From positions 1-64,000 of the forward strand of contig NZ_VMNX01000012.1 in the NCBI RefSeq assembly GCF_009377235.1: a stretch of DNA of 64,000 nt, given 5' to 3'. Shown here piece after piece: positions 40,115 through 53,139 of this stretch; position 1 is the stretch's first letter; each line of letters opens with the position of its first letter. This DNA is from Streptomyces acidicola (GTDB lineage Bacteria; Actinomycetota; Actinomycetes; Streptomycetales; Streptomycetaceae). The notes under the pieces were generated by a model. It was not told the origin of the DNA. It was given only the letters and a program-made list of their open reading frames with translations, and ran no database searches. Made by a program: the position numbers and the translations under genes.

Positions 40115-41593
40115 TCACTTCTTCTTGCCGCGCTTCTCGCGCACCCGCACCGAGATATGGATCGGCGTCCCCTCGAAGCCGAACTCCTCGCGCAGCCGCC
40201 GCTCGACGAAGCGCCGGTAGCCGGCCTCGATGAAGCCCGAGGCGAAGAGCACGAACCGCGGCGGCTTGGTGCCCGCCTGGGTGCCGAAGAGGATGCGCGG
40301 CTGCTTACCGCCCCGGATCGGGTGCGGGTGGGCGGAGACCAGCTCACCGAGGAACGCGTTGAGGCGGCCCGTCGGGACCCGGGTCTCCCAGCCCGCCAGG
40401 GCCGACTCGATCGCCGGGACCAGCTTCTCCATGTGCCGCCCGGTGCGCGCCGAGACGTTGACCCGGGGCGCCCACGCGACCTGGCCGAACTCGGTCTCGA
40501 TCTCCCGCTCCAGGTAGTAGCGGCGCTCCTCGTCGAGGGTGTCCCACTTGTTGTACGCGATGACCATCGCCCGCCCGGACTCCACGGCCATCGTGACGAT
40601 GCGCTGGTCCTGTACGGAGATGGACTCGGCGGCGTCGATCAGGATGACCGCGACCTCGGCCTTCTCCACGGCCGCCGCGGTGCGCAGCGAGGCGTAGTAG
40701 TCGGCGCCCTGCTGGAGGTGGACGCGCTTGCGGATGCCCGCCGTGTCGACGAACTTCCAGGTGACGCCGCCAAGTTCGATGAGCTCGTCGACCGGGTCGC
40801 GGGTGGTGCCCGCCAGTTCGTTGACGACTACGCGCTCTTCGCCCGCCACCTTGTTCAGCAGCGAGGACTTGCCGACGTTCGGGCGGCCGATGAGGGCGAT
40901 ACGGCGTGGGCCGCCGAGCCCGGTGCCAAAGGTCTGCGCGGGCGCCTCGGGCAGCGCCTCCAGGACGGCGTCCAGCATGTCGCCGGTACCGCGGCCGTGC
41001 AGCGCGGACACCGGGTGCGGTTCGCCGAGCCCGAGGGACCACAGGTACGACGCGTCGGCCTCACCGCTCGGGCCGTCGACCTTGTTCGCGCACAGGACGA
41101 CGGGCTTGCCGGCCTTGCGCAGCAGCCGTACGACGGCCTCGTCGGTGTCCGTGGCGCCGACCTTGGCGTCGACGACGAACACGACCGCGTCGGCCGCCTC
41201 GATCGCGAACTCGGCCTGGGCGGCGACGGAGGCGTCGATACCCATGACGTCCTGCTCCCAGCCGCCGGTGTCGACGACCTTGAAGCGGCGGCCCGCCCAC
41301 TCGGCCTCGTACGTGACACGGTCGCGGGTGACGCCCGGCTTGTCCTCGACGACCGCCTCACGGCGGCCGATGATGCGGTTCACCAATGTCGACTTGCCGA
41401 CGTTCGGGCGGCCGACGACGGCGAGGACGGGCAGCGGTCCGTGCCCGGCCGCCTCGATGGCGCCCTCGACGTCCTCGATGTCGAAGCCCTCTTCGGCGGC
41501 GAGCTCCATGAACTCCGCGTACTCGGCGTCGCCAAGCTCTCCGTGCTCGTGCTCGTACTCGCCCGAGCCGTCGGAGGGGATGTGGTCGTTCAT
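40115..41593 (-). CDS. der: Ribosome assembly GTPase Der (EngA)
   Basis: A 492-residue double-GTPase. The G1 loops are GRPNVGKS at 61-68 and again near 235, with DTGGWEQ and DTAGIRKR as the G3 regions and ANKVDG / NKWDT as G4. A C-terminal KH-like domain follows ([28 protein letters not shown]). Der is needed for 50S subunit maturation. An acidic N-terminal extension of about 50 residues is typical of actinobacterial Der. GAGGT precedes the ATG. It is the last gene of the aroH-tyrA-cmk-plsC-der operon, 75 bases after the acyltransferase gene. Confidence 0.95.
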
Positions 41594-41668
41594 GAAGTCG
41601 GTACCTCGTTCATCGTGGTGATCGGTGGAACGCTCCGGTGTGCGGGTGATCCACTACTCAAGTGTGGT

Positions 41669-42316
41669 TCAGCGGCCGGTGAGCCGCCTGGCATTTTCCA
41701 GGTGCCCGGAGAGCTGCTTCTGGATGCGCTCGGTCGCCTCGTCGAGCGCCTTGCGCGTGCGCCGCCCACTGCCGTCGTCCGCCTCGAACGGGTCGCCGAA
41801 GACGACGTCGATGCGGTGGCGCAGCGGGGGCAGCGCCTTTATCAACCGGCCTGGCTTCTCAGAACTTCCCAGCACCGCGACCGGCACGATCGGGGCGCCG
41901 CTGCGGACCGCGAAGTACGAGAGCCCGGCGCGCAGGGAGGCGAAGTCGCCCTCGCCGCGGGTGCCCTCGGGGAAGATGCCGAGAACACCGCCGTTCTCCA
42001 GGACGCCGAGCGCCTGGGTGATGGCCGTGCGGTCGGCGGTCGAACGGTCCACCTTCAGCTGTCCGACGGCGCGCATGAAGGGGTCGAGCGGGCCGACGAA
42101 CGCCTCCTTCTTGACCAGGAAGTGCGACGGCCGGGGCGCCACGCCGATGACCATCGGGCCGTCGATGTTGTGCGAGTGGTTGACGGCGAGGATCACCGGG
42201 CCGGTCGCGGGCACCTTCCAGGCGCCGAGCACACGCGGCTTCCACAGCCCGTACATCAGGCCGACGCCGATACGGCGCCCGACCTCGGCCCCGCGTTCGG
42301 AAGGTGCCCCGGTCAC
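41669..42316 (-). CDS. 1-acyl-glycerol-3-phosphate acyltransferase (PlsC-like)
   Basis: A 215-residue acyltransferase. The H-x4-D motif is NHSHNIDG, the phosphate-binding motif is FPEGTRG, and VPVAVLG corresponds to motif IV. It transfers an acyl chain to lysophosphatidate or a related acceptor at the membrane during phospholipid synthesis. The GTG at 42316 overlaps the cmk stop (GTGA), so translation is coupled. A gene of this family between cmk and der is the normal actinobacterial arrangement. Confidence 0.88.
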   Translation of the reverse strand: MTGAPSERGAEVGRRIGVGLMYGLWKPRVLGAWKVPATGPVILAVNHSHNIDGPMVIGVAPRPSHFLVKKEAFVGPLDPFMRAVGQLKVDRSTADRTAITQALGVLENGGVLGIFPEGTRGEGDFASLRAGLSYFAVRSGAPIVPVAVLGSSEKPGRLIKALPPLRHRIDVVFGDPFEADDGSGRRTRKALDEATERIQKQLSGHLENARRLTGR

Positions 42317-42990
42317 TTCCCCGCCCGCTTCTCCTCGACGAGGGTGACCACGCACTCGATGACCTGCTGGAGCGTGAGGTCCGAGGTGTCCACCTCGACC
42401 GCGTCGTCCGCCTTGGCGAGCGGCGAGGTCTTGCGGCTGGAGTCGGCGGCGTCCCGCTTGAGCAGCGCCTCGCGGGTGGCGTTGACGTCGGCGCCCTTGA
42501 GCTCACCGTTGCGGCGGGCGGCGCGGGCCTCCGAAGAGGCGGTGAGGAAGATCTTCAGGTCGGCGTCCGGCAGCACGGTGGTGCCGATGTCACGGCCCTC
42601 GACGACGATGCCGTTCTCCGCGCCGGCCGCGATCGACCGCTGGAGCTCGGTGATCCGGGTACGCACCTCGGGCACCGCGCTGACCGCGCTGACCTTGGAG
42701 GTGACCTCCTGCGTACGGATCGGACCGGCCACATCCGTCCCGTCCACGGTGATGCTCGGCGCGGACGGATCGGTCCCGGAGACGATCTCCGCCTTGCCGG
42801 CCACGGCGGCGATCGCCGAGGGGTCGTCTATGTCGATCCCGTTGTTCACCATCCACCAGGTGATCGCCCGGTACTGGGCGCCGGTGTCCAGGTAGCTCAG
42901 CCCGAGCTGCGTGGCGACGGCCTTCGAGGTGCTCGACTTGCCCGTGCCGGAGGGGCCGTCGATGGCGACAATCACTGCGGCGCGTTCCAC
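42313..42990 (-). CDS. cmk: Cytidylate kinase
   Basis: A 225-residue NMP kinase. The P-loop IVAIDGPSGTGKSSTSKAVA is at the N terminus, LGLSYLDTGAQYRAITW binds CMP, IVVEGRDIGTTVLPDADLKIFL is the conserved core, and SRKTSPL / DAVEVDTSDLT end the family pattern. It phosphorylates CMP and dCMP. I start at GTG 42990 with GGAAAGG upstream; the longer frame runs into a Pro/Arg stretch without support. It is coupled to the plsC-like gene. A perfect 18-bp palindrome lies 42-59 bases upstream. Confidence 0.93.
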   Translation of the reverse strand: MERAAVIVAIDGPSGTGKSSTSKAVATQLGLSYLDTGAQYRAITWWMVNNGIDIDDPSAIAAVAGKAEIVSGTDPSAPSITVDGTDVAGPIRTQEVTSKVSAVSAVPEVRTRITELQRSIAAGAENGIVVEGRDIGTTVLPDADLKIFLTASSEARAARRNGELKGADVNATREALLKRDAADSSRKTSPLAKADDAVEVDTSDLTLQQVIECVVTLVEEKRAGK

Positions 42991-43031
42991 TGTGGGGGCA
43001 CCTTTCCTGGTCCGGGGTGGTGGAGGGGGCG

Positions 43032-43049
43032 CTAAGCGGCGCCGCTTAG
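43032..43049. promoter_or_regulatory. Perfect palindrome CTAAGCGGCGCCGCTTAG
   Basis: 18-bp fully symmetric sequence 42 bases upstream of the cmk GTG. It could be an operator, or a short RNA hairpin controlling entry into cmk. Confidence 0.4.
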
Positions 43050-43129
43050 GTGCCCCGGACAAGGGTACTGGGTGCGCGTCGCTCATCTGGCCGTACCCAG
43101 GGGCCCCACGACCGTATCGTTCGCGTGCC

Positions 43130-43250
43130 CTACTGGCGGAGTGCCCACCCCCGCTCCCGCAACGCCGCCGTCAGCACCGGCACCGCCCTCGGCTCCACCA
43201 TCAACTGCACCAGACCGGCCTGCTGCCCCGTCGCATGCTCGATCCGTACG
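43130..43250 (-). pseudogene. Duplicated tyrA 3' fragment (121 bp)
   Basis: Identical over 121 bp to the end of tyrA at 43355-43475, including the stop codon. It encodes about the last 39 tyrA residues (ending LREREGWALRQ-like ALRERGWALRQ) but has no start or ribosome binding site, so it is a gene fragment. Confidence 0.85.
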
Positions 43251-43354
43251 ACCAACCCTCGACGCCGCCCTCGCACCGCTCGGCGCCAGGGGCGCCTCCC
43301 AGGCTTCGGGACTGCTGCGGCGGCCTCCGACCGCCGACATCAAGGCACCCCGCA

Positions 43355-43475
43355 CTACTGGCGGAGTGCCCACCCCCGCTCCCGCAACGCCGCCGTCAGC
43401 ACCGGCACCGCCCTCGGCTCCACCATCAACTGCACCAGACCGGCCTGCTGCCCCGTCGCATGCTCGATCCGTACG
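43355..43475 (-). repeat. tyrA 3' end, second member of 121-bp direct repeat
   Basis: This stretch is inside the intact tyrA gene and matches 43130-43250 base for base. The offset is 225 bp. Confidence 0.9.
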
Positions 43476-44440
43476 TCCTCGATGTTGACCCCGGCCATGC
43501 CCGCGTCGGCGAAGATGCGGGCCAGCTGGCCCGGCTGGTCGTCGATCAGTACTGCCACGACCTCGTAGACCCGCGGAGCGGAACCGTGCTTGCCGGGCAC
43601 CCTGATCTGGCCGGCGTTGCCGCGGCGCAGGACGTCCTCGATGCCGGTGGTGCCCTCACGGCGCTTGGCCTCGTCGGAGGACTGCAGGGCGCGCAGGGCG
43701 CGGACGGTCTCGTCGAGGTCGGCGGCGAACTCGCTGAGCAGGTCGGCCACCGGTCCGGGGTTCGCGGAGAGGATGTCGATCCACATAGGGGGGTCGGAGG
43801 CCGCGATGCGGGTCACGTCACGGATGCCTCCGCCGGAGAGCCGTACGGCGGACTCCTCGGCGTGCTCCAGGCGCGCGGCGACCATGCTCGACACCAGGTG
43901 CGGCATGTGGGAGACCAGGGCGACCGCGCGGTCGTGGGCGTCGGCGTCCATGACGACCGGCACGGCACGGCAGTGCGAGACCAGCTCCAGGGCGAGGTTC
44001 AGGACCTCGGTGTCGGTGTCCCGGGTGGGGGTGAGCACCCAGGGGCGGCCCTCGAAGAGGTCGCCGGTGGCCGCCAGAGGGCCCGACTTCTCGCGGCCCG
44101 ACATGGGGTGCGTGCCGATGTACGCGCTGAGGTCGAGGCCGAGAGCCTCCAGCTCACGGCGCGGTCCGCCCTTGACGGAAGCCACGTCGAGGTAGCCGCG
44201 GGCGAGACCGCGCCGCATGGCGTCGGCCAGCGTCGCGGCGACGTGCGCGGGCGGCGCGGCCACGATCGCGAGGTCGACGGGCCCGTCGGGCGCCTCGTCG
44301 GTGCCCGCGCCGAGCGCGGCGGCCGTACGGGCCTGCTCCGGATCGTGGTCGGTGAGGTGGACGGTCACCCCGCGCTGGGCCAGCGCCAGGGCCGCCGAGG
44401 TGCCGATCAGCCCGGTCCCGATGACGAGTGCGGTTCTCAC
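43355..44440 (-). CDS. tyrA: Prephenate dehydrogenase with ACT domain
   Basis: A 361-residue NAD(P)-dependent enzyme of tyrosine synthesis. The Rossmann motif VIGTGLIGTSAALALAQRG is at the N terminus. YIGTHPMSGREKSG and VSHMPHLVSSMVAARL are the catalytic and prephenate-binding segments, and the C-terminal 80 residues (VYEVVAVLIDDQPGQLARIFADAGMAGVNIEDV) form an ACT regulatory domain, probably tyrosine-sensing. GTG 44440 overlaps the aroH stop (GTGA). The last 121 bp are duplicated downstream, but this copy is intact. Confidence 0.93.
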   Translation of the reverse strand: MRTALVIGTGLIGTSAALALAQRGVTVHLTDHDPEQARTAAALGAGTDEAPDGPVDLAIVAAPPAHVAATLADAMRRGLARGYLDVASVKGGPRRELEALGLDLSAYIGTHPMSGREKSGPLAATGDLFEGRPWVLTPTRDTDTEVLNLALELVSHCRAVPVVMDADAHDRAVALVSHMPHLVSSMVAARLEHAEESAVRLSGGGIRDVTRIAASDPPMWIDILSANPGPVADLLSEFAADLDETVRALRALQSSDEAKRREGTTGIEDVLRRGNAGQIRVPGKHGSAPRVYEVVAVLIDDQPGQLARIFADAGMAGVNIEDVRIEHATGQQAGLVQLMVEPRAVPVLTAALRERGWALRQ

Positions 44441-44799
44441 TGGGCGATGTCCTTGCGGAGTGCGGCCGCGGCGCCGAGGTAGACGTGCGCGATCTCCGCG
44501 CGCGGCCGGTCGGACTCGATGTGCGCGAGGACCCGTACGACCCGGGGCATCGCGCCCTTCACGTCCAGTTCCTGCGCGCATATCAGCGGGACGTCGGCGA
44601 TGCCGAGCTTGCGGGCGGCGGCCGCCGGGAAGTCGCTGTGCAGGTCGGGTGTCGCCGTGAACCAGATGCTGATCAGGTCGTCCGCGGTGAGCTCGTTCCG
44701 CTGCAGGATGGCTGTGAGCAGCTCGCTGACCTGCTCCTCCATGTGTCCGGCCTCGTCCCGCTCCAGTTGGACGGCGCCTCGGACCGCTCGTACCGGCAC
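44437..44799 (-). CDS. aroH: Chorismate mutase, AroH type
   Basis: A 120-residue AroH-class chorismate mutase (pseudo-alpha/beta barrel, trimeric in the family). VRAVRGAVQLERDEAGHMEEQVSELL and IWFTATPDLHSDFPAAAARKLG are the family core, with the active-site Arg and Glu region in RAVRGA and AQELDVKG, and MPRVVRVLAHIESDRPR near the C terminus. It turns chorismate into prephenate, the substrate of the coupled downstream TyrA. GAGGAG precedes GTG 44799. First gene of the operon. Confidence 0.92.
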   Translation of the reverse strand: MPVRAVRGAVQLERDEAGHMEEQVSELLTAILQRNELTADDLISIWFTATPDLHSDFPAAAARKLGIADVPLICAQELDVKGAMPRVVRVLAHIESDRPRAEIAHVYLGAAAALRKDIAQ

Positions 44800-44955
44800 G
44801 GCTGTGCTCCTCGCTGATGTACGTACACGACTCGTCACCCAAGCGTAGTCAGCCCGGAACGCACCGGTGCGCGGCGCCCGCCTGCCGAGAAGGCCGCCGT
44901 GAGGCACCGGGAAATTCGGTTCGCCAGGCGTGATCCACCCCGTACGCTCCCGGGC

Positions 44956-45720
44956 ATGCAGTCCGAGGCCCTGGTCCGCGACCACACGATCTACGCCTGT
45001 GTCATGGGGTCGCGCGCCTTCGGCCTGGCCACGGACGACAGCGACACCGACCGCAGGGGCGTCTTCCTCGCCCCCACTCCCCTGTACTGGCGCTTCGAGA
45101 AGCCGCCGACGCATGTGGAAGGCCCGGCGGAGGAACAGTTCAGCTGGGAGCTGGAGCGTTTCTGCTCCCTCGCCCTGCGCGCCAACCCGAACATCCTGGA
45201 ATGCCTGCACTCACCGCTGGTGGAGCACGTCGACGACAGAGGCCGTGAACTCCTGTCCCTGCGCGGGGCGTTTCTGTCCCGGCAGGTCCACGAAACGTTC
45301 GTGCGCTATGCCCTCGCCCAGCGCAGGAAGCTCGAAGCGGACGTCCGCAAGCACGGCGCCCCGCGCTGGAAGCACGCGATGCACCTGCTGCGCCTCCTGA
45401 CGAGCTGCCGTGACCTCCTGCGCACGGGCGAACTCACCCTCGACGTGGGCGAGCTGCGCACGCCACTCCTCGCGGTCAAGCACGGCGAGGTGCCCTGGTC
45501 CGAGGTGCAGTCCCGGATGACCCGGCTGGCGGCGGAGGCGGACGAGGCGGCGACCCGCTCCCCACTGCCGCCGGAGCCGGACCGGGCCCGCGTGGAGGAC
45601 TTCCTCGTACGGACCCGCCGCGCCTCAGCCCTCGAAGCCGTCCACGCCCGTGAGCCGGACCCGTACGACGAGGTCGTGCAGGGCGTCGTACGCGGCGGGG
45701 GCGTCCGCCAGCGCGGATAG
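44956..45720 (+). CDS. PF10127-like nucleotidyltransferase (RlaP-type)
   Basis: A 254-residue DNA polymerase beta-like nucleotidyltransferase. CVMGSRAFGLATDDSDTDRRGVFL is the family signature: G-S turn and the S-D-x-D metal-binding acids, near residues 17-33. PNILECLHSP and RYALAQRRKLEADV follow, and a helical region (WKHAMHLLRLLTSCRDLL) ends in an Arg/Pro tail. It resembles the PF10127 NTases (RlaP) that have been linked by genome context to RNA repair; substrate unknown. The last 96 bases overlap the end of a paralogous NTase gene on the other strand. ATG 44956 lacks a clear ribosome binding site. Confidence 0.82.
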   Translation: MQSEALVRDHTIYACVMGSRAFGLATDDSDTDRRGVFLAPTPLYWRFEKPPTHVEGPAEEQFSWELERFCSLALRANPNILECLHSPLVEHVDDRGRELLSLRGAFLSRQVHETFVRYALAQRRKLEADVRKHGAPRWKHAMHLLRLLTSCRDLLRTGELTLDVGELRTPLLAVKHGEVPWSEVQSRMTRLAAEADEAATRSPLPPEPDRARVEDFLVRTRRASALEAVHAREPDPYDEVVQGVVRGGGVRQRG

Positions 45721-46413
45721 GGCCTGCGCCTCGTCCAGCACGCCGTGCAGCCGCTCCACATCGCTCTCCACGCGCGCGTGGTCGACGTCGGCGGCCCCGT
45801 GCTCGTGCTCGGCCTTGGCGGCGACGAGGTCCGGCAGGTACGCGGGCGCGTCGGTCTCCCCCGCGAGCGTGGGCAGATGGGCCTGGACCTCGCCGCTGCG
45901 CATCAGGTGGATCCCCGTGAGCAGCACGCGGAACGTGTAGAGCAGCGGCTTGAGTTCGCCGGTCTTCTGGAAAAGCCGCCACTGGGTGGCCGCGAAGCCC
46001 CGGTAGTGGTGGGCGTGGTGCCGGGTGAGGACACCGGGGGCCAGCGCGGCCAGCTCTCGGTGGGCGTCAGTGGTGTGCACGACCAGCGGGGAGAGCAGTT
46101 GCTCCAGCACGTAGCCGTTGCGGCGCAGCATCAGCCGGACGAACTTGCGCAGGTCGTGCGTGACGAGGTCCAGCTCGACGCCGTCCCGGTCCCACATCCT
46201 GGAACGGGTCTCCTCCGGCTCCCGCAGCCCGATCAGTTCAGCAGTCGGCAGCAGGTGGACGCCCCTGAGGTCGACGTCCGAGTCGCGCGAGGGGAAGCCG
46301 TACAGGTGCGCTCCGGAGACGGTCGCGAACAGCAGTTCGTCGGGCTGTTCGGCGACCACCGGCGCAAGGTCGATATCGATGTCGATGTCGAGAGTCGCGA
46401 GGGTCTCAGTCAC
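45625..46413 (-). CDS. PF10127-like nucleotidyltransferase, paralogue in NrtR operon
   Basis: A 262-residue NTase. FATVSGAHLYGFPSRDSDVDLRGV holds the G-A-H variant of the G-S turn and the S-D-x-D metal site, as in its convergent partner at 44956. VELDLVTHDLRKFVRLMLRRNGYVLEQLLSPLVV supplies the third acidic residue (ELDL). An ILE-ASP repeat near the start (DIDIDID) is encoded by a short GATATC-type repeat. The GTG at 46413 is three bases from the upstream ADP-ribosylglycohydrolase stop, so it is the last gene of the nrtR operon. Its 3' 96 bases lie opposite the partner gene's 3' end. Confidence 0.85.
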   Translation of the reverse strand: MTETLATLDIDIDIDLAPVVAEQPDELLFATVSGAHLYGFPSRDSDVDLRGVHLLPTAELIGLREPEETRSRMWDRDGVELDLVTHDLRKFVRLMLRRNGYVLEQLLSPLVVHTTDAHRELAALAPGVLTRHHAHHYRGFAATQWRLFQKTGELKPLLYTFRVLLTGIHLMRSGEVQAHLPTLAGETDAPAYLPDLVAAKAEHEHGAADVDHARVESDVERLHGVLDEAQALSALADAPAAYDALHDLVVRVRLTGVDGFEG

Positions 46414-46416
46414 CGC

Positions 46417-47439
46417 TCAAGCGTCCCAGAGCGCCCCCAGCGACACGAGGTCGCCCTGGTACTCGATGCGGTCGGCCCACTCCGTCGGCCAGGCCGCCGG
46501 GCCGAGGTAAGCGCCCGCGAAGGCACCGGCGAGGCAGGCGATGGAGTCCGAGTCGCCCGAGGTGCAGGCTCCGCGGCGCAGGGCCGTGACGGGTTCGTCG
46601 GGGAAGAGCAGGAAGCAGAGCAGGCCGGTGGCGAGCGCCTCCTCGGCAATCCAGCCCTCACCCGTGGCCAGGCAGGGGTCGGTCTCGGGTGACGGGTGGC
46701 TCAGGGCCTGCTGGAGCCGGTCGAGGGCGCTCAGGCACTCGTCCCAGCCGCGGGAGATGAAAACCTCGGGCGAGGCGTCCTGGCTGTAGCGCCAGAGGTC
46801 GCCGAGCCAGCGCGTGTGGTAGCGGCCGCGGTTCTCGTACGCGTACGACCTCAACCGGTCGACCAGGCCCAGCGGTTCGACGCCCTGGGCGAGGAGCCGT
46901 ACCGCGTGTGCGGTGAGGTCGGCGGCGGTGAGCGCCGTGGGGTGCCCGTGGGTGAGTGCGGCCTGCAACTGGGCGGCGCCCGCACGCTGTTCGTCGCTCA
47001 GCCGGGGGACGAGCCCGAGCGGGGCGACCCGCATGTTGGCCCCGCAGCCCTTGGAGTGGATCTGGCTGGCGTCCTGCCAGGGTCGGCGCTCCTTGGTGAG
47101 CAGGTCGCAGGCGACCAGGCAGGTGCGGCCGGGGGCTCGGTTGTTCTCCGGCGAGCGGGACCAGGCGACGTACTCGGCGCGGGCGGCCCGCTCCAGGGCC
47201 TCGGGGCCGAGCGGGCCGCGGTCCATCGCGGTGCGCAGCGCCCGTCCGAGAGCCAGGGTCATCTGGGTGTCGTCCGTGACGAACGCGGGCTTCGGGAGCT
47301 CCATCTCCCGCCAGGGCCCACACTTGGCGAGGATCGACGGGACGTCGTTGAACTCGGTGGGGAAGCCGAGCGCGTCGCCGAGGGCGAGGCCGAGCAGGGA
47401 TCCGGTGGCGGCGCGCTTGGCAAGCAGGGTCGTGGTCAT
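46417..47439 (-). CDS. ADP-ribosylglycohydrolase (DraG/ARH type)
   Basis: A 340-residue all-helical hydrolase. The metal-binding motifs are LALGDALGFPTEF, TDDTQMTLAL (T-D-D-T acids, residue about 55) and the late SGDSDSIACLAGAFAGAYLG (D-x-D), which coordinate two Mg2+ in the family. It would remove ADP-ribose from a protein, nucleic acid or small molecule. The ATG shares one base with the nrtR stop (TGATG), so translation is coupled. Being between an ADP-ribose-sensing regulator and a nucleotidyltransferase suggests one ADP-ribose-linked pathway. Confidence 0.88.
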   Translation of the reverse strand: MTTTLLAKRAATGSLLGLALGDALGFPTEFNDVPSILAKCGPWREMELPKPAFVTDDTQMTLALGRALRTAMDRGPLGPEALERAARAEYVAWSRSPENNRAPGRTCLVACDLLTKERRPWQDASQIHSKGCGANMRVAPLGLVPRLSDEQRAGAAQLQAALTHGHPTALTAADLTAHAVRLLAQGVEPLGLVDRLRSYAYENRGRYHTRWLGDLWRYSQDASPEVFISRGWDECLSALDRLQQALSHPSPETDPCLATGEGWIAEEALATGLLCFLLFPDEPVTALRRGACTSGDSDSIACLAGAFAGAYLGPAAWPTEWADRIEYQGDLVSLGALWDA

Positions 47440-48155
47440 CAGAGCCGTCCTTCGGGCGTGGGTCGCAACAGAGGCGGGTGCAGGGTGGTGGCCTCGCCCG
47501 CGCGATAGAGCGCGGCGGGTTTGCCGCGGCCCCCGGTCAGGCGCGCGGCGCCAGGGACCGGCTCGACGAAGCCCGGCGTACTCAGCACCTTGCGCCGGAA
47601 GTTGGGCCGGTCGAGGGCGGTGCCCCACACGGTCTCGTAGACCTGCTGCAACTCGCCGAGCGTGAACTCGGGTGGGCAGAAGGACGTGGCGAGACAGCTG
47701 TACTCGAGCTTGGCGCCGACGCGTTCGTGGGCGTCGGCGAGGATCCGGTCGTGGTCGAAGGCGAGCGGGCCGGCCGTGTCGTACGGCAGCCACCGGGCCT
47801 GTGCCGCGTCGCCGCCGCCGTGCGGTTCGGGCGGGTGCGGCAGCAGCGCGGCGAACGCGACGGTGACGACCCGCATCCTCGGGTCCCGGCCGGGTTCGCT
47901 GTACGTCCGCAGTTGCTCGAGGTGGAGTTCGGAGACGTCCTCCAGGCCGGTCTCCTCGGCGAGTTCACGCCGGGCGGCCGTCTCAGCGGACTCGTGCGGC
48001 AGCACGAACCCTCCGGGCAGCGCCCAGTGGCCCGCGTACGGCTCCTGCCCGCGCTCGACGAGCAGCACCTGGAGCGTGCCGGCCCGGACGGTGAGGACTG
48101 CCAGGTCGGCGGTGACGGCGAAGGGTTCGTAGGCGTACTTGTCGTAACCGTTCAT
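47439..48155 (-). CDS. nrtR: NrtR-family Nudix regulator (ADP-ribose responsive)
   Basis: A 238-residue protein. The N-terminal Nudix domain has a complete box, GGFVLPHESAETAARRELAEETGLE (G-x5-E-x7-RE-L-xEE-x-G; residues about 48-70). The C-terminal domain (PPEFTLGELQQVYETVWG, LDRPNFRRKVL, GKPAALYRAG) is the NrtR winged helix. NrtR proteins repress NAD-metabolism genes and release DNA on binding ADP-ribose. Many have lost Nudix activity, but here the box is intact, so it could also hydrolyse ADP-ribose. AGGTGG precedes ATG 48155, and candidate operators lie upstream at 48190-48221. Confidence 0.85.
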   Translation of the reverse strand: MNGYDKYAYEPFAVTADLAVLTVRAGTLQVLLVERGQEPYAGHWALPGGFVLPHESAETAARRELAEETGLEDVSELHLEQLRTYSEPGRDPRMRVVTVAFAALLPHPPEPHGGGDAAQARWLPYDTAGPLAFDHDRILADAHERVGAKLEYSCLATSFCPPEFTLGELQQVYETVWGTALDRPNFRRKVLSTPGFVEPVPGAARLTGGRGKPAALYRAGEATTLHPPLLRPTPEGRL

Positions 48156-48189
48156 GGTCCACCTACCCCTCTTGATCGGTCACTCTTAA

Positions 48190-48221
48190 TGGTCACCATG
48201 ACCAATAGTCACTACGACTAT
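48190..48221. promoter_or_regulatory. Two abutting palindromes, candidate NrtR operator
   Basis: TGGTCA-CCA-TGACCA (48190-48204) is followed directly by ATAGTC-ACTAC-GACTAT (48205-48221). Both are perfect inverted repeats, 35-66 bases upstream of the nrtR ATG, in an AT-richer stretch likely to contain the promoter. Autoregulation is common in this family. Confidence 0.6.
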
Positions 48222-48274
48222 AAAGAGTTCGGAGGGTGCCGACAACCCGTTGGCGGCAAAGAAACGAGACATGA

Positions 48275-48315
48275 CGAAGCGGCCGGACCCGAGTCATCCG
48301 GGCCCGGCCGCTTCG
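48275..48315 (-). terminator. Terminator at the end of the par/scp/rluB operon
   Basis: CGAAGCGGCCGG/CCGGCCGCTTCG, a 12-bp perfect stem extended inside by CCCG/CGGG, 49 bases past the rluB stop. Confidence 0.75.
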
Positions 48316-48363
48316 AAGCGTCACGAAGAGGTGCCGTGGATCTTCACGGACCTGTCGACGGAT

Positions 48364-49443
48364 CTACAGGTCGACCTCACGCATCAGCATCCCGACCTCG
48401 GTGTTGGACAGCCGTCGCAGCCAGCCCGACTTCTGGTCGCCGAGAGTGATCGGCCCGAAAGCGGTGCGCACGAGCTTGTCGACCGGGAAGCCTGCCTCGG
48501 CGAGCATGCGGCGCACGATGTGCTTGCGGCCCTCGTGCAGGGTGACCTCCACGAGGTAGTTCTTGCCGGTCTGCTCGACCACCCGGAAGTGGTCCGCGCG
48601 CGCGTACCCGTCCTCCAGCTGGATGCCGTCCTTCAGGCGCTTGCCCAGGTCGCGCGGGATCGGGCCGACGATGTGCGCCAGGTAGGTCTTCTTCACTCCG
48701 TACCGGGGGTGGGTCAGCCGGTTGGCCAGCTCCCCGTGGTTGGTGAGCAGGATGACGCCCTCGGTCTCGGCGTCGAGGCGACCGACGTGGAAGAGCCGGG
48801 TCTCGCGGTTCGTGACGTAGTCACCGAGGCACTGCCGCCCCTCCGGGTCCTCCATCGAGGAGACGACTCCGACGGGCTTGTTCAGCGAGAAGAACTGGTA
48901 CGACTGCGTGGCCACGGTGAGCCCGTCGACCTTGATCTCGTCCTTCTCGGGGTCGACCCGCAGGCCCTGCTCGAGAACGATCTCGCCGTTGACCTCGACC
49001 CGCGCCTGCTCGATCAGCTCCTCGCAGGCACGCCGCGAACCGTAACCGGCCCGTGCGAGCACCTTCTGCAGCCGCTCGCCCTCCTGCTCGGCTCCGGGGA
49101 AGGTCTTGGGCGGCTTGACGGCTTCCTTGCCCGCGTACCGCTCGCGGTTGCGCTCCTCGGCGCGCGCGTCGTACTCACGGGAGCGTGCGGGGGCCGTACG
49201 CCCGCGCCCGGCCTGCCGCTCGCCCTGCTGCGGCTTCTTGGGCCCGCCCTTGGCGCCGCCGCGCGCGGAGCCGCCGCGCCCCGACTTCGGTCCGTCCGGG
49301 GTGGCACCGGGGCCGACGTCGTAGCGGCGCTCCTCCGGGCGGGGCTTGCGGGGGCGGCCCTGCCCCTGCTTCTGGTCCCTGTTGTTGCCGGCACCGCGGT
49401 AGTTACCGCGCCCGTCGCTCTTACCGCTACCGCTGCTTCGCAT
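48364..49443 (-). CDS. rluB: Ribosomal large subunit pseudouridine synthase (RluB/RsuA type)
   Basis: A 359-residue enzyme. Residues 1 to about 125 are a basic, disordered Gly/Arg/Pro-rich extension. An S4 RNA-binding domain follows (RLQKVLARAGYGSRRACEELI...VNGEIV), then the catalytic domain with the GRLD motif (HVGRLDAETEGVILLTN; catalytic Asp) and KKTYLAHIVG. It converts uridine to pseudouridine in rRNA. ATG 49443 shares one base with the scpB stop (TGATG). It is the last gene of the parA-RHH-scpA-scpB operon, a position seen in many actinobacteria. Confidence 0.92.
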   Translation of the reverse strand: MRSSGSGKSDGRGNYRGAGNNRDQKQGQGRPRKPRPEERRYDVGPGATPDGPKSGRGGSARGGAKGGPKKPQQGERQAGRGRTAPARSREYDARAEERNRERYAGKEAVKPPKTFPGAEQEGERLQKVLARAGYGSRRACEELIEQARVEVNGEIVLEQGLRVDPEKDEIKVDGLTVATQSYQFFSLNKPVGVVSSMEDPEGRQCLGDYVTNRETRLFHVGRLDAETEGVILLTNHGELANRLTHPRYGVKKTYLAHIVGPIPRDLGKRLKDGIQLEDGYARADHFRVVEQTGKNYLVEVTLHEGRKHIVRRMLAEAGFPVDKLVRTAFGPITLGDQKSGWLRRLSNTEVGMLMREVDL

Positions 49444-50117
49444 CAAAATTCCGTCGTCGTCGTTTTCGGCATGTCCGTCGCCGGACCGTCGTCCGCGTCC
49501 GGGGCGTCCGGATCGAAGGACGGTACGGCTTCCTGGGTCTCGGCCTCGATCGCCTCCGCCTCCGGGAGGAAGGGCGCGAGCTCCGGGAGCTCGTCCAGAC
49601 CGCGCAGGCCCATCCGCTCCAGGAAGTAGTTCGTCGTCCTGTACAGGATCGCACCTGTCTCGGGTTCCGCGCCCGCCTCCTCGACCAGTCCGCGCTGGAG
49701 GAGGGTGCGCATGACCCCGTCACAGTTCACGCCACGCACGGCGGAGACCCGGGAACGGCTGACCGGCTGCCGGTACGCGACCACGGCCAGCGTCTCCAGG
49801 GCGGCCTGCGTGAGCCGTGCCTGCTGCCCGTCGAGAACGAAACGCTCGACGGCGGCGGCATACTCACCTCGCGTGTAGAACCTCCAGCCCCCGGCCACGA
49901 ACCGCAGCTCGAACCCCCGCCCCTGCACGGTGTAGTCGTCGGCCAGCTCCCGCAACGCCTTCGCGATCTGCCGCCGGGGCCGATCGAGGATCTTCGCCAG
50001 GTGCTCCTCGGTGGCGGGCTCGTCCACGACCATGAGGACGGCCTCCAGAGCGGGCTTGAGGTCGAGATCGGCGACGTTCCGGTGACCGGCCGGCGCCTCG
50101 GTGATCTCCTCGCTCAC
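49443..50117 (-). CDS. scpB: Segregation and condensation protein B
   Basis: A 224-residue ScpB (kite protein) with two winged-helix domains: ALEAVLMVVDEPATEEHLAKIL and LTQAALETLAVVAYRQPVSRSRVSAVRGVNCDGVMRTLLQRGLVEEAG, the latter being the family signature. It binds ScpA and, with SMC, helps compact and separate the chromosome. The GTG at 50117 overlaps the scpA stop (GTGA), with GAGGAGGAG upstream. The acidic C-terminal tail is variable. Confidence 0.94.
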   Translation of the reverse strand: MSEEITEAPAGHRNVADLDLKPALEAVLMVVDEPATEEHLAKILDRPRRQIAKALRELADDYTVQGRGFELRFVAGGWRFYTRGEYAAAVERFVLDGQQARLTQAALETLAVVAYRQPVSRSRVSAVRGVNCDGVMRTLLQRGLVEEAGAEPETGAILYRTTNYFLERMGLRGLDELPELAPFLPEAEAIEAETQEAVPSFDPDAPDADDGPATDMPKTTTTEF

Positions 50118-51292
50118 GTCTTCTTCTCCTCCTCGGGCCGCTCGGGCGGTCGGTCGAACTCGTCGGTCACCAGCGGCGTCCCGTCCCCCTCGCCCCCGGT
50201 CCACCGCACGAGCAGCTCCCCGAGGGCGGTCTCCTGCTCCAGTGCCACGGCCTTCTCGCGGTACAGCTCCAGCAGGGCCAGGAACCGGGCGACGACGGTG
50301 AGGGTGTCGTCGGTGTCGGCGACGAGCACCCGGAAGGTGGCCTCTTTGAGCTCCCTGAGCCGCCCCACGACGAGCGCGGCCTGCTCCTGCACACTCACCA
50401 GGGGCGCGTGGATGTGGTCGACGTACACCTGGGGCTTCGGCTTCGGCTGCATCGCCTTCACGGCGAGCTTCGCGAACCCTTCCGCGCCGATGCTGATGAC
50501 GACCTCGGGCAACAGCTCCGCGTGGTGCGGTTCGAGCCCTACGGTACGGGGGTAGCGCCGGGCCTCTTCGTCCAGGCGGTGGCTGAGGATGTCGGCGATC
50601 TGTTTGTACGCGCGGTACTGCAGCAGCCGCGCGAACAGCAGGTCCCGCGCCTCCAGCAATGCGAGATCGGCCTCGTCCTCGACCTCCGCGGACGGCAACA
50701 GCCGCGCAGCCTTGAGATCGAGCAGCGTGGCGGCCACGACGAGGAACTCGGTCGTCTGGTCGAGATCCCAGTCCGGCCCCATGGCCCGGATGTGTGCCAT
50801 GAACTCATCGGTCACCTTCGACAGCGCGACCTCGGTGACGTCCAGCTTGTGCTTCGAGATCAACTGCAGGAGAAGGTCGAAGGGCCCTTCGAAGTTGGCG
50901 AGCCGGACCTTGAAGATGCCGTCGTCGGGTTGGCCGGGTTCCGGCTCGACGGGTTCGCCGGGTTCGCCGTGTTCGCCTGTGTCTTCGGCGGCCGGCTGGG
51001 GGACGTCGGGCTCGGTGTCCTCGGGCCGGGCGGGCGGCTCCGGCTCGACGGAGGCGCTCTCGGCCTGCGGGCGGGGTGCGGCGGTCTCCGGTTCCGGACG
51101 GGGCTCCGCGGTTCCGGACAGGGCCACGGCCTCGGGTTCCGGGTGAGGACGCCCGGCGTTCTCGGGCTCAGAATCCGTTTCGGTCCCCACGACCTCCGGG
51201 GGCGTCATGAGGGGCCCCGCCTTGGGCCCTCGGCCCAGCGCACGCCGACGACCGGCCGAACCGCCGGAGTGGGACGTATGGGACGAGGTCAT
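50114..51292 (-). CDS. scpA: Segregation and condensation protein A
   Basis: A 392-residue kleisin. The first 125 residues are a disordered Pro/Glu-rich extension. The core begins IFKVRLANFEGPFDLLLQLISKHKLDVTEVALSKVTDEFMAHI (SMC-neck binding) and ends with the C-terminal winged helix (LRELKEATFRVLVADTDDTLTVVARFLALLELYREKAVALEQ). It bridges the SMC heads with ScpB. ATG 51292 is used; ATG 51208 is a possible internal start within the tail. The RHH-like gene ends 57 bases upstream. Confidence 0.93.
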   Translation of the reverse strand: MTSSHTSHSGGSAGRRRALGRGPKAGPLMTPPEVVGTETDSEPENAGRPHPEPEAVALSGTAEPRPEPETAAPRPQAESASVEPEPPARPEDTEPDVPQPAAEDTGEHGEPGEPVEPEPGQPDDGIFKVRLANFEGPFDLLLQLISKHKLDVTEVALSKVTDEFMAHIRAMGPDWDLDQTTEFLVVAATLLDLKAARLLPSAEVEDEADLALLEARDLLFARLLQYRAYKQIADILSHRLDEEARRYPRTVGLEPHHAELLPEVVISIGAEGFAKLAVKAMQPKPKPQVYVDHIHAPLVSVQEQAALVVGRLRELKEATFRVLVADTDDTLTVVARFLALLELYREKAVALEQETALGELLVRWTGGEGDGTPLVTDEFDRPPERPEEEKKT

Positions 51293-51349
51293 AGCCGTCG
51301 CAGGCTACCGCGTACCACCCTCCGAAGCCGACCACCGGTTCCGGACCGG

Positions 51350-51976
51350 CTATCGCCCCCGCAGCCGGCGTACGAGGATGCTCGCGTCCCCGCGGGACTC
51401 AAGGTCGGCCAGCACCACGGCGACCGCCTCGCGCACGATCCGCCCCCGGTCGACCGCCAGCCCGTGCTCCCCGCGGAGCACCAGCCGGGCGTGTTCGAGG
51501 TCCATGAGCTCCTCGGCGGACACGTACACGGTGATCTTCTCGTCGTGCCGCTCGCGCCCGCTGGGCCGCCGCCCCGCGGCCCGCCCTCGGCGGCGGGACG
51601 CACCGGCGGCGGACGCGGGCGAACCTTCCTGTGCGGGCTGAACGGCTTGCCCGGGCTGCCGCCGAGTCGAGCGCGTCGCCCCCGGAACGGGCCCGGTGGC
51701 CTTGTCCGCCTCCGTGGCGGCCGCCCGGCTGCGGGACTCCCCCGCGTCGGCCGGCTCCGCGTCCGCGGCCACATGCTCGGCGCCCTCGCCGTCACCGCCC
51801 TGCGCGGGCACCGACGGCGGCGCGTCCTCCGCGGTGGCGGGATCACTCTCCCCCGCCGGCGCCGGCACCCTGGCCTCGCCGTTGGCCTGGCGCCGGGGAG
51901 TGGACGCCTGGAGCGCCATCCCCCCTGTCGTTCGGAACAGTTCGTCGGCCCCCGGCAGACTCACTCGGCGTGACAC
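51350..51976 (-). CDS. ParA-associated protein with ribbon-helix-helix-like C terminus
   Basis: A 208-residue protein. The first 135 residues are low-complexity Ala/Pro/Arg/Glu. The C terminus KITVYVSAEELMDLEHARLVLRG, then GLAVDRGRIVREAVAVVLADL, has the beta-strand plus two helices of a ribbon-helix-helix DNA-binding fold. It overlaps the end of parA by 16 bases (GTG 51976 has GGGAGG ten bases upstream; GTG 51964 is an alternative). By position it may be the DNA-binding partner of this ParA, replacing ParB, but that is inferred. Confidence 0.7.
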   Translation of the reverse strand: MSRRVSLPGADELFRTTGGMALQASTPRRQANGEARVPAPAGESDPATAEDAPPSVPAQGGDGEGAEHVAADAEPADAGESRSRAAATEADKATGPVPGATRSTRRQPGQAVQPAQEGSPASAAGASRRRGRAAGRRPSGRERHDEKITVYVSAEELMDLEHARLVLRGEHGLAVDRGRIVREAVAVVLADLESRGDASILVRRLRGR

Positions 51977-53139
51977 CGGGCGAGCACCTCCCTGGCGAGC
52001 TGGCGATAGGCGGCGGCACCGACGGAATTGGAGGCGTACGTGGTGATCGGCTCACCGGCGACCGTGGTCTCCGGGAAGCGGACCGTACGCCCGATGACCG
52101 TGTGGTAGACGTGATCGTCGAACGCCTCGACGACACGCGCGAGCACCTCGCGGCTGTGCACGGTGCGCGAGTCGTACATCGTGGCGAGGATCCCGTCGAG
52201 CTCCAGCTCCGGGTTGAGCCGCTCCTGAACCTTCTCGATCGTCTCGGTCAGCAGCGCCACACCACGGAGGGCGAAGAACTCGCACTCCAGGGGGACGATC
52301 ACCTTGTGCGCGGCCGTCAACGCGTTCACCGTGAGCAGACCCAGCGAGGGCTGGCAGTCGATCACGATGTAGTCGTAGTCCGCCATGAGCGGCTTCAGGG
52401 CGCGCTGCAGCGTGGACTCGCGCGCGACCTCGCTCACCAGCTGGACCTCGGCGGCCGACAGGTCGATGTTGCTCGGCAGCAGGTCCATATTGGGGACCGC
52501 GGTCTTCAGCAGGACCTCGTCGGCCGCCATGCCCCGCTCCATGAGCAGGTTGTAGACGGTGAGGTCGAGCTCCATCGGGTTCACGCCGAGGCCGACCGAG
52601 AGCGCTCCCTGCGGGTCGAAGTCGACCAGCAGGACACGCCGTCCGTACTCCGCGAGCGCGGCGCCCAGGTTGATGGTCGACGTCGTCTTGCCGACGCCGC
52701 CCTTCTGGTTGCACATCGCGATGATCTTCGCGGGGCCGTGGTCGGTCAGCGGGCCCGGGATCGGGAAGTACGGCAGCGGGCGCCCGGTCGGGCCGATGCG
52801 CTCACGGCGCTGTCGGGCCGCGTCGGGCGCGAGCGTGGCCGCGTACTCCGGATCGGGCTCGTACTCGGCGTCGGGGTCGTAGAAGTGCCCCTCGGGCAGT
52901 TCGTCGTAGTCGGCGAAGTGGTTGCGGATCTCGCCACTTCCGTCGCCGGCCATGGCGTTCACGTGATGGCCATCCATGCTCATGTGTGCTGTCTGAGTCA
53001 CCCCTGGACCTGGGTGACTCCGGTGGGCTGCGAAGGTGCGCACAGCTACGGAGCCGACAGCCTGAAGCCCCGTGGGCCGATGACCCTGCGCAGGGATTCC
53101 TGGTTGACCACCCCCGGGAGTAAATGTCGACTCATTCAC
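51961..53139 (-). CDS. ParA-family ATPase linked to scpAB
   Basis: A 392-residue deviant Walker ATPase. Residues 1 to about 130 are a non-conserved extension. The ATPase begins AKIIAMCNQKGGVGKTTSTI (signature Lys in KGGVGKTT near 145), then VLLVDFDPQGALSVGLG, the ATP-contacting YDYIVIDCQPSLG, and VHSREVLARVVEAF. No parB is adjacent; instead an RHH-like gene and scpA follow. It is therefore a second, SMC-linked ParA rather than the oriC parAB copy. AAGGAGGT lies ten bases upstream of GTG 53139. It is the first gene of the operon. Confidence 0.9.
   Translation of the reverse strand: MNESTFTPGGGQPGIPAQGHRPTGLQAVGSVAVRTFAAHRSHPGPGVTQTAHMSMDGHHVNAMAGDGSGEIRNHFADYDELPEGHFYDPDAEYEPDPEYAATLAPDAARQRRERIGPTGRPLPYFPIPGPLTDHGPAKIIAMCNQKGGVGKTTSTINLGAALAEYGRRVLLVDFDPQGALSVGLGVNPMELDLTVYNLLMERGMAADEVLLKTAVPNMDLLPSNIDLSAAEVQLVSEVARESTLQRALKPLMADYDYIVIDCQPSLGLLTVNALTAAHKVIVPLECEFFALRGVALLTETIEKVQERLNPELELDGILATMYDSRTVHSREVLARVVEAFDDHVYHTVIGRTVRFPETTVAGEPITTYASNSVGAAAYRQLAREVLARCHAE

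Follow-up and report, generated by a model that had tools for sequence, protein, structure and literature searches.

Why a nucleotidyltransferase gene of the RNA-repair type should share an operon with genes for an ADP-ribose-type regulator and an ADP-ribosylglycohydrolase is the question raised by a locus of Streptomyces acidicola, which lies on a stretch of 64,000 nucleotides (contig NZ_VMNX01000012.1, positions 1 to 64,000) that we call the window. The locus holds four genes, for NrtR, an ADP-ribosylglycohydrolase (ARH) and two RlaP-family nucleotidyltransferases (NTases A and B), and an earlier interpretation made from the letters of the window alone (the sequence-only reading) had given their coordinates, couplings and families as we find them. 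The cluster is real, conserved and for the most part explicable by known parts, and what is unexpected in it is an RNA-repair nucleotidyltransferase under an ADP-ribose-type switch. In the reading developed here, to which we give an even chance of being right, a single RlaP belonging to the Hen1-Pnkp system would be coupled to the sensing and removal of ADP-ribose and, in relatives, to NAD salvage.

44956..45720, + strand: NTase A, RlaP family (PF10127), open reading frame (ORF) of 254 aa; on the strand opposite to the operon, convergent with NTase B
45625..46413, - strand: NTase B, RlaP family (PF10127), ORF of 262 aa; last gene of the nrtR operon
46417..47439, - strand: ARH, ADP-ribosylglycohydrolase (ARH/DraG superfamily) with [TS]DDT and GDSDS motifs, ORF of 340 aa
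47439..48155, - strand: NrtR, Nudix domain with an intact Nudix box plus winged helix, ORF of 238 aa; predicted repressor of the operon
48186..48208, - strand: predicted NrtR operator 2, CTATTGGTCATGGTGACCATTAA; palindrome in tandem with operator 1
48202..48224, - strand: predicted NrtR operator 1, TTTATAGTCGTAGTGACTATTGG; palindrome overlapping the -10 box
48217..48245, - strand: sigma-70-like promoter of the operon, TTGTCG-17-TATAGT; the sole such promoter in 44700-48500

The nrtR and ARH genes overlap by one base (TGATG), a gap of 3 nucleotides (nt) separates ARH from NTase B, and the convergent NTase genes share 96 nt at their 3' ends. All four products score above the Pfam cut-offs of their families: NrtR with 82.8 bits for PF00293 (cut-off 21.1) and 59.3 bits for PF21906, NrtR_WHD (cut-off 27), ARH with 217 bits for PF03747 (cut-off 26.2), and the NTases, whose resemblance to PF10127 had been offered for a profile check, with 118 bits (A) and 187 bits (B) against a cut-off of 23, which rules out a place outside that family. 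A and B are the only PF10127 matches in the genome.

Predicted operator and promoter of the operon

Two tandem palindromes (48186-48224) precede nrtR, where the operator pattern would be expected to match 0.02 times by chance in the whole window. With up to three mismatches allowed, the 10.25-Mb genome yielded two operator sites, both before nrtR, and the reversed-pattern control yielded none. The -10 box of the promoter falls inside operator 1; shuffles of 44700-48500 gave such promoters with a mean of 0.0 and a standard deviation of 0.1. Because the tandem palindromes before nrtR are the only sites in the genome, we predict that nrtR, ARH and NTase B form a single autoregulated operon.

The operator was also found in relatives. 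When the region from rluB to ARH was scanned with an operator matrix at a threshold of 25 bits, 38 of the 42 retrieved loci with an ARH match had a site above it, as did 26 of the 30 loci outside the training set of the matrix, and the 20 shuffles made of each region reached at most 12.4 bits. The operator precedes whichever gene comes first, be it nrtR, pnuC or ARH, with its center mostly 16-58 nt from the called start of that gene (gene starts in the retrieved loci, and the distances, spacings and layouts that follow from them, come from a simple gene caller of our own).

Conservation of the locus in the genus

Among 121 genomes sampled from the window's own genus, NrtR was found at an identity of at least 71% in 79, all of which have ARH within 4.5 kb of it; one of the 79 (G318) has an additional NrtR copy without ARH. 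A match to ARH at an identity of at least 62% was found in 99 of the 121 (two of the 99 being partial or short), and the genus keeps the neighborhood at one chromosomal place. A second sample, 296 genomes of Actinomycetes, was searched for RlaP and Hen1, and RlaP neighborhoods were opened at 40 places in 39 of its 78 RlaP genomes; among these, only the window's genus showed RlaP together with NrtR and ARH. Conservation of the neighborhood, by which the sequence-only reading could be checked, is supported within the genus.

The 99 ARH loci differ in content. The tallies were made from hand-copied positions, A and B were told apart manually by score and by the range of the profile, and all PF10127 counts in this sample are among the matches listed, so that fragments may be missed. 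On that basis, the commonest arrangements are NrtR with B and A (19), NadR and NrtR with B and A (19), NadR and NrtR with A (15) and NrtR with A (10), followed by NrtR alone (10), ARH alone (7), B and A without NrtR (5), A only (4) and ten others in groups of up to 4. An NTase is missing at 20 of the 99, comprising 10 with NrtR, 3 with NadR and NrtR, and 7 with ARH alone. Where B is present, it keeps close to ARH: it begins 3-4 nt after ARH in 19 of 27 loci, and 46 of the 50 genomes whose B is intact have the two genes side by side, again among the matches listed. The tail-to-tail overlap of B and A measures 75 nt in 9 of 23 loci. In comparisons with five relatives, all four genes gave dN/dS values of 0.13-0.36, which indicates purifying selection. 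This selection is looser than that on rluB, some pairs for NrtR being the exception.

The NTase pair and Hen1-Pnkp RNA repair

RNA repair by Hen1-Pnkp is described in PMC4411300 as established in vitro, and PMC7824862 and PMC6514570 present the restoring of lost nucleotides before RNA ligation as a predicted role of RlaP. Like the RlaP nucleotidyltransferases covered there (PF10127; PMC7824862), A and B have the nucleotidyltransferase fold and its acids and a link to RNA ligation; unlike them, they are two paralogues that travel as a pair, and control of an RlaP by NrtR was not found in the open-literature searches made. Alignments of 30 sequences each show G18, S19, D30, D32, E60 and E65 of A and S33, G34, D46, D48 and D82 of B to be invariant, with the glycine-serine, DxD and later acids kept in both.

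The closest relatives of A and B outside Actinomycetes, 49-57% identical, are on Deinococcus plasmids (a plasmid collection was searched with A and B, a phage collection with B only). The order hen1-A-B was present in all three Deinococcus plasmid regions opened, out of four Deinococcus records matched by B, and pnkp follows in two of them.

D. ficus plasmid: hen1-A-B-orf-pnkp, genes overlapping by 4 nt
D. gobiensis plasmid: hen1-A-B-pnkp
D. taeanensis plasmid: hen1-A-B, in a stretch without pnkp

On the D. taeanensis plasmid (L200, 4985-5764), a gene for a Thg1-type tRNA(His) guanylyltransferase and two small ORFs stand upstream of hen1-A-B. The pairing of A and B is also kept at 80 named loci that we take to belong to the Streptosporangiales, where the two genes are on the same strand in 71, within 150 nt of each other in 68 of these. 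Genes for hen1-pnkp are found within the 6-kb flanks of A-B at four of the 80 (L128, L135, L146 and L149) and near A-B in L039. The ARH profile found no ARH among the called genes beside A-B in the Streptosporangiales; its sole match (L107) was set aside, being from the window's genus and part of the profile itself. At that locus (L107, 4445-7013), which is at another chromosomal place in a single genome of the genus, a tandem A-B has as its divergent neighbor a distinct gene of the ARH family (about 25% identical).

Co-occurrence, in tests for RlaP, Hen1 and Pnkp that were uncorrected for phylogeny, pointed the same way as gene order. Of the 296 Actinomycetes genomes, 78 have RlaP and 86 have Hen1, with 66 having both, 12 RlaP only, 20 Hen1 only and 198 neither; Hen1 is accordingly present in 66 of 78 RlaP genomes versus 20 of 218 genomes without RlaP. 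The window's genus contributes 28 genomes to this sample, 23 with both and 5 with neither. Hen1 was found in 23 of the 24 genomes with an A or B of the present type, drawn from the 39 opened of the 78 and the window's own, the exception being G161. In the 121-genome sample, RlaP is missing from 7 of the 8 genomes without a Pnkp match (exception G370) versus 12 of the 113 with one, and a Pnkp match, in some cases partial, accompanies all 50 genomes with B and 87 of the 88 with A, all among the matches listed. In one genome (G389; C1 5445970-5450278, L239), the Pnkp gene is present only in separated fragments, and NTase A is present without a B match. The window's own genome has overlapping hen1 and pnkp genes on another contig (C186; Hen1 681 bits, Pnkp 1363 bits).

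On these comparisons, A and B are assigned to the RlaP type that is tied to Hen1-Pnkp, and not to general RlaPs. The sequence-only reading had linked the NTases to RNA repair by family context; with relatives inside Hen1(-Pnkp) operons and genome-level co-occurrence, the tie to RNA is stronger than was proposed. The likeness to Hen1-Pnkp systems (TIGR04074/TIGR04075) lies in the A-B genes within Deinococcus hen1(-pnkp) operons, in their adjoining these genes in some Streptosporangiales and in the hen1-pnkp of the window's own genome; the difference is that here the pair is split, with B in the NrtR operon and A convergent, and that hen1-pnkp is on another contig.

Structure prediction gave an AlphaFold2 model of NTase B with a mean pLDDT of 89.4. 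Its best PDB matches by E-value were aminoglycoside (ANT-4) nucleotidyltransferases and HalB, mostly with TM values of 0.4-0.5, and among viral structure models the matches reached 0.76. We take HalB to be a signal-making nucleotidyltransferase, and because of the HalB/ANT-4 and viral-model matches, B might have a signal-making role like HalB's. By sequence, no solved RlaP structure was found with NTase B as query against the PDB, both matches having E > 0.1. The model of NTase A (pLDDT 72) was too weak for a structure search.

The link to NAD salvage

The sequence-only reading had noted that no NAD-biosynthesis gene is adjacent and had proposed that the cluster acts on an ADP-ribose or nucleotide mark rather than controlling NAD synthesis as canonical NrtR does. 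Among the neighbors scanned in the window, the first statement holds; at many related loci nadR and pnuC are present, and the absence of a NAD link at the level of the genus is ruled out by two observations. NadR was found in 42 of the 121 genomes, with nadR beside NrtR in 38 and at the ARH locus in 39; in the four others, it lies elsewhere (G101 and G337), beside an NrtR of 65% identity (G340) or beside ARH without an NrtR match (G407). In addition, where pnuC-nadR is found apart from the ARH locus, pnuC is preceded by the operator or a variant form (L095, 35.9 bits; L096, 43.2 bits; L098, 23.3 bits), and the pnuC-nadR operon of L096 ends in a second nrtR. Retrieved nadR loci have the layout pnuC-nadR-nrtR-ARH(-B), and at one of them (L044) Pfam confirmed PnuC (PF04973) and NadR (AAA_28 plus a cytidylyltransferase-like domain).

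For the window's own genome, the claim of no NAD control survives locally, since no NadR was found, the PnuC gene is in a riboflavin-type operon and the sole operator is at the nrtR operon. The NadR query that matched 42 genomes of the genus sample had no match here, and the single gene of the PnuC family belongs to an operon of the riboflavin type preceded by an FMN riboswitch (contig C234, L241 1555-3091), so that this genome apparently keeps the switch and ARH without nicotinamide riboside (NR) salvage of the pnuC-nadR kind. The PnuC-family gene probably encodes what we take to be the riboflavin transporter RibM.

NrtR together with nadR-pnuC is known from Streptococcus suis (PMC6800001). 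The present system resembles that NR-salvage regulon, as described there, in having NadR and PnuC beside NrtR in relatives, a palindromic operator of its own and predicted autoregulation. The operator, TTTATAGTC-N4-TGACTATTAA, counts among the differences between that regulon and the present one, along with the ARH beside NrtR in 79 of 79 genomes, the RlaP B at the end of the operon in many and the absence of pnuC-nadR from the window locus and of any NadR found in the genome.

A possible ADP-ribose switch for RNA repair and its alternatives

Starting from what was observed directly (gene order, palindromes, promoter overlap, family membership and co-occurrence), we infer the following mechanism. 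The nrtR-ARH-NTase B operon would be repressed by its own NrtR binding to the tandem palindromes over the promoter. Free ADP-ribose, arising from NAD+ consumption or ADP-ribosyl turnover, would release NrtR, as with characterized NrtRs; free ADP-ribose has been discussed as a signal and in nucleic-acid repair (PMC3680494). ARH would then remove ADP-ribose from its presumed targets. NrtR, its Nudix box being intact, may itself hydrolyze ADP-ribose and reset the switch. In relatives (39 of 121), nadR at the same locus, with pnuC in the retrieved cases, would rebuild NAD+ from imported nicotinamide riboside. The RlaP pair, elsewhere within Hen1-Pnkp operons, is split here, with B under predicted NrtR control and A encoded on the other strand and lacking an NrtR site, so that a NAD/ADP-ribose stress signal may be tied to the supply of one RNA-end-repair nucleotidyltransferase with a purpose shared with the other genes. 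A further step, which we offer tentatively and think has a less than even chance of being right, is that ADP-ribose is the inducer of RNA-end repair: NAD+ use by NADases, ADP-ribosylation or KptA-type NAD-using RNA repair would free NrtR, and the operon would make the hydrolase, the NAD-salvage genes where present and an RlaP B that completes Hen1-Pnkp tRNA repair, with A supplied separately. Should this hold, ADP-ribose would act at the level of transcription as a signal for RNA repair. One regulon would then bring together NAD depletion and tRNA damage, both of which are outcomes of conflict among bacteria, and RlaP nucleotidyltransferases would gain a testable partner and natural inducer. 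In open-literature searches on NrtR with RlaP, Hen1, NadR or ARH and on RlaP/Hen1-Pnkp repair, judged mostly by titles and the starts of abstracts, this operon was not found described, and earlier surveys may list parts of it.

Several observations weigh against the coupling. ARH loci lack B more often than NrtR or A (B is intact at 46 of 99 loci, with NrtR at 79 and A at 76, among the matches listed), several genomes have a short or broken B, and because A lacks the operator, the place of B in the operon could be incidental. Four of the 42 retrieved loci fell under 25 bits (L077, 21.6; L084, 16.2; L099, none; and L110, with a fragmentary ARH match on the opposite strand and a site close by). 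Neither hen1 nor pnkp is at the operon locus, and an NrtR operator before hen1-pnkp was sought without a convincing candidate, there being none within three mismatches in the window's own genome and a best score of 24.3 bits, not before hen1, in 126 further loci that included Pnkp and Hen1 loci. The co-occurrence statistics of RlaP and Hen1 ignore phylogeny, 12 RlaP genomes have no Hen1 (among them G161, with an A/B pair), and 20 Hen1 genomes have no RlaP. Finally, NrtR scored 128.2 bits, below the 400-bit cut-off of the NCBIfam equivalog NF050029.

These points bear on three other explanations. An ordinary housekeeping regulon for NAD salvage and ADP-ribose, in which NR salvage goes with an ARH that recycles ADP-ribosyl adducts and the NTase pair is an independent passenger, is possible, though we rather doubt it. 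The 20 of 99 ARH loci without an NTase (among the matches listed), nadR at 39 of 99, the short or broken copies of B, the position of A on the other strand and the lack of an ARH among the called genes beside A-B in the Streptosporangiales all fit it; an unrelated passenger would not readily account for B lying 3-4 nt behind ARH in 19 of 27 loci and adjoining it in 46 of 50 intact-B genomes, nor for the purifying selection on B. We consider it improbable that the genes form a defense operon against ADP-ribosylating phages, with ARH reversing phage ADP-ribosylation and RlaP helping to repair tRNAs cut during infection. PMC9503650 proposes ARH with Nudix-HTH regulators as a defense against viral ADP-ribosylation, and the locus follows that template of ARG-centered systems in combining ARH and a Nudix-HTH regulator with no ADP-ribosyltransferase found in cis; a Pfam scan of the four genes and ten neighbors (40115 to 53139; the neighbor at 51350-51976 had no Pfam match) found none among those neighbors, and distant RlaP relatives occur in phages. 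None of the ten neighbors matched a phosphatase, chaperone or effector family in the same scan, although PMC9503650 reports a phosphatase partner in a little over 55% of cases, hence not an obligatory one, and its section 3.8 does not name RlaP as a partner. The fixed place among core genes (rluB-scpBA and aroH-tyrA) and purifying selection also speak against defense, as does the search for a known defense system, in which the PADLOC models gave no match to A, B or ARH and, for NrtR, a weak one to the Nudix region (PDC-S07, 26.9 bits).

The model of the sequence-only reading, in which the NTases would write and ARH would erase an ADP-ribose or nucleotide mark on RNA that the cluster also senses, appears to us very improbable. 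In its favor are the tie of RlaP to RNA repair and the report, in PMC9411070, that S. coelicolor SCO3953 modifies 5'-phosphorylated RNA and SCO6450 removes ADP-ribose from such RNA; RlaP pairs are found with no adjoining ARH in Streptosporangiales and Deinococcus, however, no ADP-ribosyltransferase is among the neighbors scanned, and of the 42 NadR genes in the genus sample, 38 are next to NrtR.

Features of NrtR and ARH

The proposed coupling of an ADP-ribose-type switch to RlaP B involves a regulator whose Nudix box, GX5EX7REUXEEXGU, is intact, as it is in 32 of the 33 NrtR1 sequences of the retrieved loci. PMC6800001 reports that MsNrtR lost ADP-ribose hydrolase activity, its Nudix box being changed at three residues. 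The best PDB matches of NrtR are AraR and the Nudix-family entry 3gz5. For ARH, the [TS]DDT motif is present in 43 of 43 matches, two being copies of the window, and GDSDS in 41 of 41 with those two excluded; we take both to be metal-site acidic motifs. Its identification as an orthologue of DraG (TIGR02662, 67 bits against an equivalog cut-off of 337) or of Tri1 (NF041672, 59 bits against 490) was rejected. SCO1766 is presumably the S. coelicolor orthologue. The uncharacterized DraG/ARH homologues of S. coelicolor number eight in PMC9411070, and the DraG/ARH homologues are counted as seven in PMC5087735.

A second NrtR and the surroundings of the locus

The window's own genome has a second NrtR on another contig (C526, L074 8681-9439), 55-61% identical, with Nudix-box residues intact by eye and a palindrome of its own, TTTATCGTCAGGGAGACGACTAG; a nearby gene presumably encodes a sigma factor. 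The best sites for this pattern in the genome are at its own promoter (2 and 3 mismatches), with two other places at 3 mismatches, and paralogues of this type are present in many genomes of the genus. Of six loci retrieved as ARH without an adjoining NrtR1, five (L100-L104, not L099) carry a variant operator, [TC]TTATTGTCANNNTGACGATNAA; among other loci without NrtR, L040 and L049 have other operator variants and L113 a near-standard form. Because the variant operator and the site before the second NrtR have a GACGA half in common, this suggests that ARH operons without NrtR1 may have been taken over by the second paralogue.

The locus is flanked by rluB-scpB-scpA-parA on one side and aroH-tyrA-cmk-plsC-der on the other, identities backed by Pfam matches to pseudouridine synthase, ScpB, ScpA, a ParA-type ATPase, chorismate mutase, prephenate dehydrogenase, cytidylate kinase, acyltransferase and an EngA-type GTPase. 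No Rieske-type gene was seen beside NTase A in the window; at nine loci (L040-L042, L045-L048, L051 and L052), a gene for a Rieske-type small protein stands upstream of NTase A on the same strand.

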